A program made the translations under genes and the position numbers. From assembly GCA_022451865.1 (NCBI GenBank), contig JAKUNM010000012.1:1-32266 (forward strand): 32,266 nucleotides of DNA, given 5' to 3'. The DNA comes from Dehalococcoidia bacterium. Lineage in GTDB: Bacteria > Chloroflexota > Dehalococcoidia > UBA2979. Each line of letters starts with the position of its first letter. Position 1 is the first letter of the stretch. The notes below the pieces were generated by a model, which ran no database searches, was not told the origin of the DNA, and saw only the letters and a program-made list of their open reading frames with translations. Shown here one piece after another: positions 12,388 to 27,753 of the stretch.

Positions 12388-13515
12388 ATGAGTATCCGTG
12401 GAAAAGCTGCCATAGTTGGGTTTTATGAAGTCCCAACTCGTAAAGAAATGCCAGATCGGACAACATTTGGTTTGTTAGCAGAGGTAGCTCGGGGGGCTAT
12501 TTTGGATGCTGGCTTAAAAAAAGATGATATTGATGGTCTTATTACTCCTGAACAATTTAATTCTCTCACTGTTGCCGAAGCTCTTGGTTTGCAACCTCGG
12601 TTTAACGTTTCTATGACTACACACGGTGCTAGTGGAGCTACTTCTATTGCTACTGCAGCAGAAGCTATTGCTGCAGGCGTAGTTGATTATGTACTTTGCG
12701 TTTTCGGTGAATCAAGGCCACGATCAAGTTCTCGATTACGTAGTGTTGCTGAAGCTCGTGATTCATTACCTCCTCGTAGCCGCACTACAGAATGGGAAGT
12801 TCCATATGGACCAGTAATTGCGATGAACGGTTGGTATGGCCTTATGAAGCAGCGTCATATGTTTGAGTACGGTACAACTCAAGAGCAGTTTGCAAAGATG
12901 GTAGTCGACCAGAGATTCAATGCTTCAAAAAATGTTAATGCAGTTTGGTATGAAGAACCCGTGACTATGGATGACGTACTTAATTCTCGCTTTACTAACG
13001 ACCCTTTACATTTATTAGAAAGCGTTATGCCTTGTTCAGGGGCGCATGCTGTGATTGTTACTTCTGCTGAACGTGCAAAGGCATTACCTAATCCCCCTGC
13101 GTACATTCTGGGAGTAGGAGGCCCGGCAACTCGTCATGATATTATTTGGCATGATGAAGATATGACTACTACTCCAGTAGTTGATTCTGCTCCAACAGCG
13201 TTGCAGATGGCTGAAATTAATATTAATGAAGTTGATCTTGCTCAGTTTTACGATTGTTATACCATTCTCGCAATGGCATGTTTAGAAGATGCTGGTATTG
13301 TTCAGAAAGGGGAAATTGGACCTTTCTATCAAGATACAGATACCACATTTAATGGGACTTTTCCCATTAATACAGATGGTGGGCAGATTGGTGCCGGGCA
13401 GACAGGTGGTACTGGTGGCGGTTTTCGCCATGTTGTCGAGGCTACAAGGCAAGTAATGGGTAGAGGTGGAATTCGCCAGGCTTCTAAAACAGATATATGT
13501 ATGGTGAATGGCTGA
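12388..13515 (+). CDS. SCP2/lipid-transfer-type thiolase (acetyl-CoA acetyltransferase-like), apparently truncated at a TGA
   Basis: MSIRGKAAIVGFYEVPTRK, ITPEQFNS..., NINEVDLAQFYDCYTILAMACLEDAG, GGQIGAGQTGGTGGGFRHVVEATRQVMG. The frame stays open after the TGA to TAA 13570-13572. Confidence 0.87.
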   Translation: MSIRGKAAIVGFYEVPTRKEMPDRTTFGLLAEVARGAILDAGLKKDDIDGLITPEQFNSLTVAEALGLQPRFNVSMTTHGASGATSIATAAEAIAAGVVDYVLCVFGESRPRSSSRLRSVAEARDSLPPRSRTTEWEVPYGPVIAMNGWYGLMKQRHMFEYGTTQEQFAKMVVDQRFNASKNVNAVWYEEPVTMDDVLNSRFTNDPLHLLESVMPCSGAHAVIVTSAERAKALPNPPAYILGVGGPATRHDIIWHDEDMTTTPVVDSAPTALQMAEININEVDLAQFYDCYTILAMACLEDAGIVQKGEIGPFYQDTDTTFNGTFPINTDGGQIGAGQTGGTGGGFRHVVEATRQVMGRGGIRQASKTDICMVNG

Positions 13516-13601
13516 GGAGGCTCTTCTAGCGTCATGTGTACGCTCGTCCTTGGTTCAAGTGCGACACTGTAAGAAAGAATAAGTGAAAGAAAGTTATTAA
13601 T

Positions 13602-22141: not shown

Positions 22142-22699
22142 TTATTTTTTTTCTGGTAAGGCTTCTACACCTTCTGGGGGAGGGACTTCGAATGCATTAA
22201 GTGTAAAACCCACTATAGTGTAATATCCAACCAAACCGGTGATGTCAACGATACCTTGTTTTCCAATGTAATTTTTTAGATTTTGGAATGTTTCGTCATC
22301 AACTCGATTGTGCTTAAATAATTGTCTGACGAATGACACGATACTTGCTATTTCTGGGTCAAGTTGGGCAACACTATTTTCATTGCCGATAGTTTCAATG
22401 ATTGATTCAGACACGTCTGCTTTTTTCGCGAGCATTACATGAGATCCCCACATTAATTCGGCATCAAGGCAACGAGCAGCAGTGATGATAGCGATTTCTC
22501 TTTGTGCAGGGGTGAGGTCAGAATTCCAGCGAACATATTTTCCGAGTGCGGCTGTTTTTTCTGCTAATTCAGGGGAGTGTAATAAGATGCCGTATGGTCC
22601 GGAAACACTTCCTCCTCGGAATTCTGCAACATTATCATATGTAGTTCTGTTTTCCTCTGGTACATCATCTCGGTTGAGCATGTTTAAAAGTCTGGTCAT
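22142..22699 (-). CDS. Carboxymuconolactone decarboxylase (CMD/AhpD-fold) family protein
   Basis: LTPAQREIAIITAARCLDAELMWGSHVMLAKKADVSESIIETI and C-terminal LVGYYTIVGFTLNAFEV. Confidence 0.82.
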   Translation of the reverse strand: MTRLLNMLNRDDVPEENRTTYDNVAEFRGGSVSGPYGILLHSPELAEKTAALGKYVRWNSDLTPAQREIAIITAARCLDAELMWGSHVMLAKKADVSESIIETIGNENSVAQLDPEIASIVSFVRQLFKHNRVDDETFQNLKNYIGKQGIVDITGLVGYYTIVGFTLNAFEVPPPEGVEALPEKK

Positions 22700-22718
22700 T
22701 AGATCTCCTTATGATTTA

Positions 22719-23015
22719 TTAATGGCATTCCGAATCGTCAGATTCGTGCACCATATCTTCTTCTGGAATAAAAGGTATTTGTACTCCGCCCCGGAGTGAT
22801 GCGAGATGTGTCGCAGCAATGGAAAGTCATGGGGGTGAAGCAGGAAAGAACTCATTCACTGTTCCAGGAAGTACACCATGCCAGATACAATCTGGCCAGT
22901 AACAATCCTCTTTTTCACCTGGTTCTAGTAGATGTTTTAGACGACGTGCTTGTAACGTCAGTTCCCACCAACGTTCGTCATCTGCAAATCCACTTGTAAT
23001 ATCAGTATCAATAAT
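22719..23015 (-). pseudogene. Disrupted or recoded small protein-like ORF (about 98 codons) with internal TGA and no standard start codon
   Basis: Manual reverse-strand reading from ATT 23015: IIDTDITSGFADDERWWELTLQARRLKHLLEPGEKEDCYWPDCIWHGVLPGTVNEFFPASPP[TGA 22829-22827]LSIAATHLASLRGGVQIPFIPEEDMVHESDDSECH[TAA]. AGGAG at 23024-23020 sits in SD position. Confidence 0.55.
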
Positions 23016-23039
23016 TTTGCTCCTAACGATTTCTTTGCA

Positions 23040-24008
23040 TTAGTATCCCAGTGCTTTGTCGATAGCGCCTTCAAGTTTTTCTCCATCTTTGAAGTGTTGA
23101 ATATTTCTACAAAAACGATCAACATTTCTTCCGATTCGCAGCTGACTAGCACCTGCAGTATGAGGTGTCATGACAATGTTACGTGTTGTCCAAAGAGGGT
23201 GATTAGGTGATAAAGGTTCTTGAGGTACTACATCTAAACCAGCAGCATAAATTTGTTTATTATCAATTGCCAAGACTAGTGCATCGCCATCAACACATTC
23301 ACCTCGAGTGACATTAATTAATATTGCAGTGGTTTTCATTTTCTCAAATACTTCTGTATTGAAGAAATTTCTTGTTTCGGGAGTCAATGGGAGACCACAC
23401 GCAATTACGTCCGATTCCGCTAGTAGGTCATCTAATTTTCTTAAGTCCCATACATCAGGTATTTCAAGTGAGGCTTCTACTGGATCTCTATCGACAGCGA
23501 TGCATTTCATTCCAAAAGCATGGGCTCGTTTCGCTATTGCTCGACCTGTTCCTCCAAAACCTACAATACCCATTGTCAATCCTTCTAATTCGAACTCTTG
23601 TTGTCGATAATCAACTCTATGATTCCACGATTCTGGGCCGTCAAGTATTGCATGATCGATTCTTCTGGTTAGTGCTAATAATAATCCAAAGGCTGTTTCT
23701 GCAAGATGACTTCCGACTAAGCCTTTGTCTCCTGATAAAAGAGCATTACTTGAAGCAAATGATTCAAACAAGTAAGCGTCAGCTCCTGCTGTACTTGCAT
23801 GAACCCATTTTAATTTTGTTGTTGCAGCAAATATTTCTTCAGTAATTCTGCCAAAAATTATGTCAGCTTCAGGAGCTGCGGTAATGACCTCATGTTCATT
23901 TCGTGCGACTATAATTTTAGCCTTGTCACCTGCAGCTACACGAATTTTCTCTATAGCAACAGAGTCTATATCTTGCATTGTGAGGCTAGTCATTACCAAA
24001 ATATTCAT
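23040..24008 (-). CDS. D-isomer-specific 2-hydroxyacid dehydrogenase, NAD-binding
   Basis: MGIVGFGGTGRAIAKRAHAFG, NVTRGECVDGDAL, GLDVVPQEPL, MTPHTAG. Start at ATG 24008, 1 bp after the upstream stop. Confidence 0.9.
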   Translation of the reverse strand: MNILVMTSLTMQDIDSVAIEKIRVAAGDKAKIIVARNEHEVITAAPEADIIFGRITEEIFAATTKLKWVHASTAGADAYLFESFASSNALLSGDKGLVGSHLAETAFGLLLALTRRIDHAILDGPESWNHRVDYRQQEFELEGLTMGIVGFGGTGRAIAKRAHAFGMKCIAVDRDPVEASLEIPDVWDLRKLDDLLAESDVIACGLPLTPETRNFFNTEVFEKMKTTAILINVTRGECVDGDALVLAIDNKQIYAAGLDVVPQEPLSPNHPLWTTRNIVMTPHTAGASQLRIGRNVDRFCRNIQHFKDGEKLEGAIDKALGY

Positions 24009-24009
24009 T

Positions 24010-25005
24010 CTATCCAACCAATTTGCGATAGATTTCCGCCTGTTTCTTGGGGTCTTGTTCATCTATGCTAACTGAATGCCAATCGAACCCTGCATCAGCT
24101 GCTTCTTCTAGAGCATCGATACACTCTTCAACGCTTCCCCAGGTTCCTAATTGATCTACTAAATCATCGGGGAGTGCTGCTGCACCTCCGACTGCCTTTC
24201 CTTCTGCCCATCCTCTACGAACTGCGTTTGCTTCATCGGCATAGCCCATTCGCTGGAAATGTTCATAATAAAAATCACCCATCCTGGCTATATAAAAAGC
24301 AGTATTTTGTGCCGTTTCAGTGCGAGCTGCTGTGGAATCTTCCGTGACACGTATTGTTGAAGGGTTTCTTATAACAAAGTCCTTTCGATCACGACCTGCA
24401 TCTTGCAAAAATTCGGTCATCATATCAATTTGCGGACGCCATTGCTCACTCGGTAAATGAATAGGTAACCATCCATCTGCGATTGTAGCTGTTTGTTTAA
24501 GGGATTTAGGCGTGATCGAAGCTACATGGATAGGTATATGATTTCGTAGAGGTGTCAATCTCATTGTAAAACCTCTGGCTAGTTGAAAAATATCTCCGTC
24601 ATATTGTAAAGGCGTCTCATTAAGAATCATGTTAATAATCTCAATATATTCTCTAATACGTGTGAGAGGTTTGCTGAATTTTACACCGTGAAAATGTTCG
24701 ATAACTTGAGGTCCTGATGAGCCAATTCCTAAAATCATTCTTCCGTTCGAAATATGGTCCAATGTAGCAAAGTGTTGTGCGATTGCACCTGGCGTCCGTG
24801 AGAAAATATTTATGATGTTACTACTCAATAGAACATTATTTGTTTCATGTGCAACTACTGCTAAAAGAGATAAAGCATCAGCCCCCCAGGCCTCAGAAAT
24901 ATTAAATGTATGGACTCCAGAATCATCTGCAATTTTTGCCTGTTCAACAATACTGTCTATATTAAAATCACCAGCCCAATTTAATCCTACGGTTATCTTT
25001 CGCAT
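24010..25005 (-). CDS. LLM-class (luciferase-like, probably F420- or flavin-dependent) oxidoreductase
   Basis: VGLNWAGDFNIDSIVEQAKIADDSGVHTFNISEAW, FATLDHISNGRMILGIGSSGPQVIEHFHGVKF, PIHVASITPKSLKQTATIADGWLP. Confidence 0.92.
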   Translation of the reverse strand: MRKITVGLNWAGDFNIDSIVEQAKIADDSGVHTFNISEAWGADALSLLAVVAHETNNVLLSSNIINIFSRTPGAIAQHFATLDHISNGRMILGIGSSGPQVIEHFHGVKFSKPLTRIREYIEIINMILNETPLQYDGDIFQLARGFTMRLTPLRNHIPIHVASITPKSLKQTATIADGWLPIHLPSEQWRPQIDMMTEFLQDAGRDRKDFVIRNPSTIRVTEDSTAARTETAQNTAFYIARMGDFYYEHFQRMGYADEANAVRRGWAEGKAVGGAAALPDDLVDQLGTWGSVEECIDALEEAADAGFDWHSVSIDEQDPKKQAEIYRKLVG

Positions 25006-27195: not shown

Positions 27196-27753
27196 CTAGA
27201 ATGGATTGCTTTCACCATCTGGAACTGTTACCTCAAAAGTATTCAGAGTTAGAGATACCAAGCAGTAATATCCCATTATTCCGACGAGATCGATTATTCC
27301 ATTTTCTCCAATTTGTTCTTTTGTAATTTCGTACGTTTGTTCACTGATTCTATTAGTTGCAAAATATTCTTTAACAAAAATGTAAACTGCGTTGTATTGT
27401 TGTCCTTTGTCAGTTTTTGAAAAGATTGGCTGATCGCCTACGCGTACCGATTCAATGATTTCATCTGGTAAGCCAGCCTCTCGAGCTAGTCGTGCATGTG
27501 CCCAAAATTCAAATTGTGCTGTCCAATGTTTTCCGGTCAAGATAATTGCTAATTCTGCTACATCAGGGCTTAAACTTGTGTCAAAGCGACAATATGCTCC
27601 AAGATGTTGGACTCTGTCACATAATTCAGGTCTCCTAAGTAGTGATTCAAATGGGCCACGCATACTTCCTCGAGGACCTGAAAGCATTTTATCGACTACT
27701 ACCTGCTGTTGTGCAGATAAATTATCAAGATCAATAGGTGATAGACGAGGCAT
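27196..27753 (-). CDS. Carboxymuconolactone decarboxylase-fold protein, second paralog
   Basis: LSPDVAELAIILTGKHWTAQFEFWAHARLAREAGLPDEIIESV and C-terminal LVGIMGYYCLVSLTLNTFEV, same layout as 22142-22699. Confidence 0.83.
   Translation of the reverse strand: MPRLSPIDLDNLSAQQQVVVDKMLSGPRGSMRGPFESLLRRPELCDRVQHLGAYCRFDTSLSPDVAELAIILTGKHWTAQFEFWAHARLAREAGLPDEIIESVRVGDQPIFSKTDKGQQYNAVYIFVKEYFATNRISEQTYEITKEQIGENGIIDLVGIMGYYCLVSLTLNTFEVTVPDGESNPF

Follow-up and report, generated by a model that had tools for sequence, protein, structure and literature searches.

The minus strand of the window (the whole stretch of DNA analysed, 32,266 nucleotides, from the genome here called G000) very probably carries a functional gene for a selenoprotein of about 97 residues that represents a new, narrow family; we put the probability of this reading at roughly 0.87. 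The gene would be the middle one of an operon with a dehydrogenase gene and a CMD-family gene, and from the sequence we infer ATT initiation, SelB-guided insertion of selenocysteine (Sec) at an internal UGA, and co-transcription with both neighbours. In the proposed mechanism the operon would be transcribed in the order dehydrogenase, selenoprotein, CMD, and the ribosome would initiate weakly at ATT (ATC in a sister species) behind a conserved AGGAG. Selenocysteine would be added at the internal UGA by SelB with Sec-tRNA-Sec, directed by a hairpin 35 nt downstream, after which translation would run on to the TAA. The features of the locus are as follows.

23040-24062, minus strand: D-2-hydroxyacid dehydrogenase, upstream neighbour (Pfam PF02826); same neighbour in the genomes G001, G017 and G025.
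23020-23024, minus strand: Shine-Dalgarno AGGAG; GTTAGGAG identical in G000 and G001.
23010-23012, minus strand: probable ATT start, 7 nt after AGGAG.
22719-23012, minus strand: candidate small selenoprotein gene, 97 codons from ATT (23012-23010) plus TAA (22721-22719), supported by orthologs and dN/dS.
22875-22904, minus strand: C-x4-C-x2-H-G motif (CYWPDCIWHG), a possible metal site with His28; C38, C43, H46, G47 and H28 invariant in six of six family members.
22827-22829, minus strand: in-frame TGA, putative selenocysteine codon in the context PP-U-[LR]-S; same codon in all four orthologs, with SelA and SelB in the genome.
22801-22814, minus strand: a second hairpin, also small and conserved (GCGA..TCGC), that follows the TGA and precedes the SECIS-like hairpin; four of its pairs are invariant.
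22783-22797, minus strand: SECIS-like hairpin, here ACTCCG-GGG-CGGAGT, whose apical loop lies 35 nt past the TGA; spacing, loop size and leading G are the same in all four orthologs.
22142-22699, minus strand: CMD-family protein, downstream neighbour (Pfam PF02627); same neighbour in G001, G017 and G025.

An earlier note on this DNA had pointed to some 98 protein-like minus-strand codons with an internal TGA that ORF calling had missed, and its peptide was reproduced letter for letter. Read as an ORF, the 98 codons extend from 23015 to 22722 with the TGA at 22829-22827 and a terminal TAA at 22721-22719, while the frame itself is open from 23039 to 22722, starting right after the dehydrogenase TAA (23042-23040). 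The distance from the dehydrogenase stop to the CMD ATG is 340 bp (22700-23039) and that from the ORF stop to the same ATG is 19 bp; these positions, like that of AGGAG plus ATT, had been given correctly. The downstream CMD-like protein and a second one at 27196-27753 (minus strand) both lack Cys at the AhpD CxxC site (AELMWGSH and AQFEFWAH, respectively), and for the second Pfam gave no match at E 1e-5.

As the earlier note had also maintained, there is no in-frame ATG, GTG or TTG upstream of the conserved part in G000. Besides the ATT listed above, an alternative ATT (23015-23013) lies 4 nt after AGGAG. The sister species, G001, has ATC at the same codon as the listed ATT, again 7 nt after AGGAG, and the same length to the conserved part; about the same place is occupied by GTG in G017 and by ATG in G025. 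On the evidence of two species, the start in G000 is probably a weak ATT (ATC in the sister species). The frame of the small gene coincides with that of the dehydrogenase TAA (23040-23042, minus strand) in G000, and in neither G001 nor G017. A fusion to the dehydrogenase through readthrough of that TAA was rejected on the coordinates, which place the two in frame in G000 but not in G001 or G017. Since the gene is out of frame with the dehydrogenase in these two genomes, independent initiation is required.

Searching 99 related genomes at the protein level recovered the peptide with TGA at the identical codon in three other genomes: G001 (contig PANZ01000020.1, Chloroflexi SAT228; same genus; 86% identity, E 2.5e-57), G017 (JABIST010000342.1, Dehalococcoidia SI072_bin195; 64%, E 8.7e-36) and G025 (DKLZ01000030.1, Dehalococcoidia UBA6627; 52%, E 1.8e-21). 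In all three the gene is likewise flanked by the dehydrogenase and CMD genes. The carriers of the TGA form in the collections searched are thus four genomes from three genera, two of them from one genus. Two peptide patterns built from six sequences confirmed only the four loci among 84,980 GTDB species genomes; scanning 393 genomes of the class with a profile yielded just two further weak, partial matches (L064 and L065; E 2e-4 and 4e-4) that were not family-like on inspection, and viral contigs held no relatives of the small protein. The selenoprotein family therefore appears to be rare and narrowly distributed, judged from these searches.

Coding constraint, whose absence the earlier note had named as a refutation, is present on both sides of the TGA. 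Between G000 and G001, dN/dS (Nei-Gojobori) was 0.17 before the TGA (61 codons) and 0.22 after it (35 codons); the downstream part showed 8.0 synonymous changes per 24.7 sites and 7.0 nonsynonymous changes per 80.3 sites. Between G000 and G017, synonymous sites differed by 93% before the TGA and by 53% after it, with the TGA itself unchanged. Constraint on both sides, together with a TGA that was kept between genera despite near-saturation of synonymous sites, indicates that both halves are translated and that the TGA is under selection. The lower synonymous divergence after the TGA is the pattern expected from an overlapping RNA signal.

Two divergent paralogs lack the TGA, L005 in G017 and L006 in G025 (34% and 30% identity). 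They begin with ordinary start codons, stand beside other genes and show Phe or Leu in the Sec column, and they keep the WW, C-x4-C-x2-HG and S-x-A-x-x-H motifs as well as C-terminal residues related to those of the TGA form. In G025 the TGA form and L006 lie within 5 kb on a single contig. No homolog with Cys at the Sec site was found, the two TGA-less ones having Phe or Leu only. The earlier note had named homologs with a sense codon at the TGA as a sign of a real family; such a codon occurs only in these two paralogs. Given the differences in neighbours and at the Sec position, the Sec form probably performs a function that the paralogs do not.

According to the published bSECIS model, the loop comprises 3-9 nt and the stem 4-16 bp, a G occupies one of the first two loop positions, the distance from the UGA is 16-37 nt, and the MFE is at most -7.5 kcal/mol (PMC13188914). 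All four orthologous hairpins agree with this model in loop, stem, leading G and spacing: each has a 3-nt loop with G first and a stem of 5-7 bp, and the apical loop starts exactly 35 nt from the TGA. Their sequences are CTCCG-GGG-CGGAG in G000 and G001, CTCCG-GTC-CGGAG in G017 and CTCCA-GGT-TGGAG in G025, where the last stem pair shows a compensatory double change from G-C to A-U. Neither TGA-less paralog has such a SECIS-like hairpin.

The 57 nt after the TGA fold with an MFE of -12.7 to -20.4 kcal/mol in the four orthologs, while the isolated stems reach just -4.0 to -9.1 kcal/mol and are weak in G017 (-4.8) and G025 (-4.0 kcal/mol). When the codons were synonymously re-coded, the observed stability was matched at any spacing in 2.7% (G000), 0.4% (G001), 26% (G017) and 30% (G025) of trials. 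With the spacing fixed at 35, the figures were 0.2%, 0%, 2.1% and 2.9%, respectively. The common spacing is therefore stronger evidence than the stability of the individual stems. A pair-shuffle control on the hairpin, with four alignment rows only, gave an uninformative 93 of 500. The second hairpin has a fifth pair that is C-G in G017, G-C in G025, and unpaired in G000 and G001. No Rfam match was obtained at the gathering threshold.

With respect to the Sec machinery, G000 encodes SelA (E 4.6e-133) and SelB (E 8e-95, over the cut-off), and SelA occurs in each of the four carriers and in 30 of the 35 relatives that were checked. A tRNA-Sec with a TCA anticodon was detected in G001, G002, G017 and G028, that is, in two of the four carriers (G001 and G017), and none was found in the 85% complete G000 assembly or in G025. 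The tRNA-Sec of G001 (L034, C12:86741-86833) has a tRNA-His nearby. The whole 3-kb stretch around it has no DNA match in the G000 assembly, which suggests an assembly gap.

The remark in the earlier note that this was the second in-frame TGA in the window also proved correct; the other one meant is most likely that of the following gene.

12388-13572, plus strand: thiolase-like gene (lipid-transfer/acetyl-CoA acetyltransferase type) with an in-frame TGA at 13513-13515 (VNG-U-GG).

The thiolase-like ORF (12388-13515) stops at this TGA, and the frame runs on for another 18 codons. The TGA is present in many thiolase-like homologs (60 relatives searched): 20 of 30 aligned homologs have TGA at the VNG-[TGA]-GG column and the remainder Asn, Gln, Ser, Thr, Val or His, with Cys in none of the 30. 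Most of the genes with this TGA have a SECIS-like hairpin with a G-led loop 35-37 nt past the VNG-TGA, which is weak in the window's own copy. A second thiolase site, YD[C/U]YT, has Cys in 24 of 30 homologs and TGA in three sequences, and the homologs L077, L094 and L095 (genomes G063 and G048) have two TGAs, at VNG-U-GG and YD-U-YT. Such an exchange between Cys and TGA is what usually marks selenocysteine. The class-wide thiolase TGA, its SECIS-like hairpin and this exchange together provide independent support for TGA meaning Sec in G000. Thiolase is absent from a table of 119 prokaryotic selenoprotein families (PMC13188914), and a literature search returned no relevant paper linking thiolase with selenocysteine and an in-frame UGA.

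Had the UGA been decoded in some ribosomes by a near-cognate tRNA (e.g. Trp), the locus would yield a short and a long form by programmed or leaky readthrough, with no involvement of selenium. This would fit the lack of a Cys homolog at the site and the failure to find tRNA-Sec in the G000 assembly or in G025. It is nevertheless improbable, given that SelA and SelB are present, the sister species has tRNA-Sec, a bSECIS-type hairpin sits at a fixed spacing, the sequence after the TGA is nearly as constrained as that before it, and a second TGA gene has a SECIS-like hairpin and homologs that exchange Cys and TGA at a second site. The earlier note had left the choice between a decaying gene and a genuine small protein that relies on unusual initiation and on readthrough. 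A real gene is borne out by purifying selection, and a non-AUG start by the ATC of the sister species at the same Shine-Dalgarno spacing; readthrough is better replaced by selenocysteine insertion, in view of SelA/SelB, the hairpin and the class-wide second TGA gene.

We consider it very improbable that the locus is a pseudogene, a decaying small gene that has lost its start and gained a stop. G000 does lack an ATG, GTG or TTG start and does have an internal TGA, as such a history would predict. Against it, four genomes from three genera keep the same TGA between stretches under purifying selection, and orthologs that start with GTG or ATG still have it. Equally hard to sustain is the notion that the TGA is a true stop and the conserved DNA downstream of it not coding, but a structured leader or an attenuator of the CMD gene. 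Two small hairpins do occur in the stretch from the TGA to the CMD start, but the G000-G001 changes downstream follow codons, in the proportions given above, and both TGA-less paralogs encode related C-terminal residues beside different neighbours. An assembly error was rejected because independent genomes conserve the TGA, and neither the pseudogene nor the sequencing-error option of the earlier note finds support. Genome-wide reassignment of TGA was rejected as well, since seven of the 34 window ORFs end in TGA (one of the seven being the thiolase-like gene now read through).

Returning to the predicted selenoprotein, the six family members share 20 invariant residues, among them R15, W16, W17, H28, C38, C43, H46, G47, H70 and E85. 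By sequence, a metal site could be made up of H28, C38, C43 and H46. None of the six members matched Pfam up to E 10 or NCBIfam up to E 1, and the PDB gave no meaningful match. A structure model predicted from five sequences had a pLDDT of 42, at which a specific fold or active site is unsupported. A tentative suggestion, which we hold to be somewhat more doubtful than likely, is that the protein, small and metal-binding (H28, C38, C43, H46), assists the dehydrogenase or the CMD enzyme as a redox or nucleophilic accessory in the breakdown of organic compounds; the accessory role is proposed because the neighbours are constant.

It is possible, at a little short of even odds, that Sec here occupies a position that is never Cys in known homologs and that initiation at AUU/AUC and decoding of the UGA are both inefficient steps in its expression. 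If so, this family without a Cys form and the thiolase-like gene (VNG-U-GG) would suggest that this Chloroflexota lineage acquired Sec at non-Cys positions more than once. Gene callers miss the combination of an in-frame TGA with a non-AUG start, and such a gene is therefore easily overlooked. Moreover, computational selenoprotein discovery often depends on Sec/Cys pairs (PMC2398784), so families with no Cys form would be systematically overlooked. If confirmed, the gene would represent a new family of selenoproteins, one for which the databases searched contain no relatives, a case of Sec not replacing Cys, and a tie between selenium use and organic-compound metabolism in marine Dehalococcoidia-related bacteria.

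A literature search found no paper combining 'selenoprotein' and 'SAR202', and among the 119 prokaryotic selenoprotein families tabulated in 2026 we recognised nothing with the motif or neighbourhood of the small protein (PMC13188914). Besides the TGA-less paralogs described above, the closest known systems are of three kinds. The first is that of the CMD/AhpD-like selenoproteins, which carry CxxU inside the CMD domain (PF02627). The likeness lies in the syntenic CMD-family neighbour; in contrast, this neighbour, as read from its sequence, shows neither CxxC nor CxxU at the AhpD site (AELMWGSH), and the putative Sec belongs to a different small protein that is unrelated to it and unmatched in Pfam. 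The second is cvfC1 of S. aureus, which encodes 61 aa with a possible zinc finger and has a conserved, experimentally mapped AUU start; in poor medium, expression from non-canonical starts in S. aureus was about 10% of that from AUG (PMC13009471). Like cvfC1, the gene described here belongs to an operon, encodes a small protein that may bind metal, and has a non-AUG start past a conserved Shine-Dalgarno sequence, but cvfC1 is not described in that paper (PMC13009471) as a selenoprotein and its start was mapped, whereas the start proposed here derives from two species. The third comprises the bacterial selenoproteins that depend on SelA, SelB, tRNA-Sec and a bSECIS, with which the small protein shares a conserved in-frame UGA, a small apical loop starting with G at 16-37 nt downstream, and Sec machinery in the genomes (PMC13188914). 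Unlike these, it has no Cys counterpart and no UxxC or CxxU motif, and it has an ATT or ATC start in one genus. On the best reading, the small protein is a new family within the bacterial selenoproteins, made unusual by its missing Cys counterpart and its non-AUG start.
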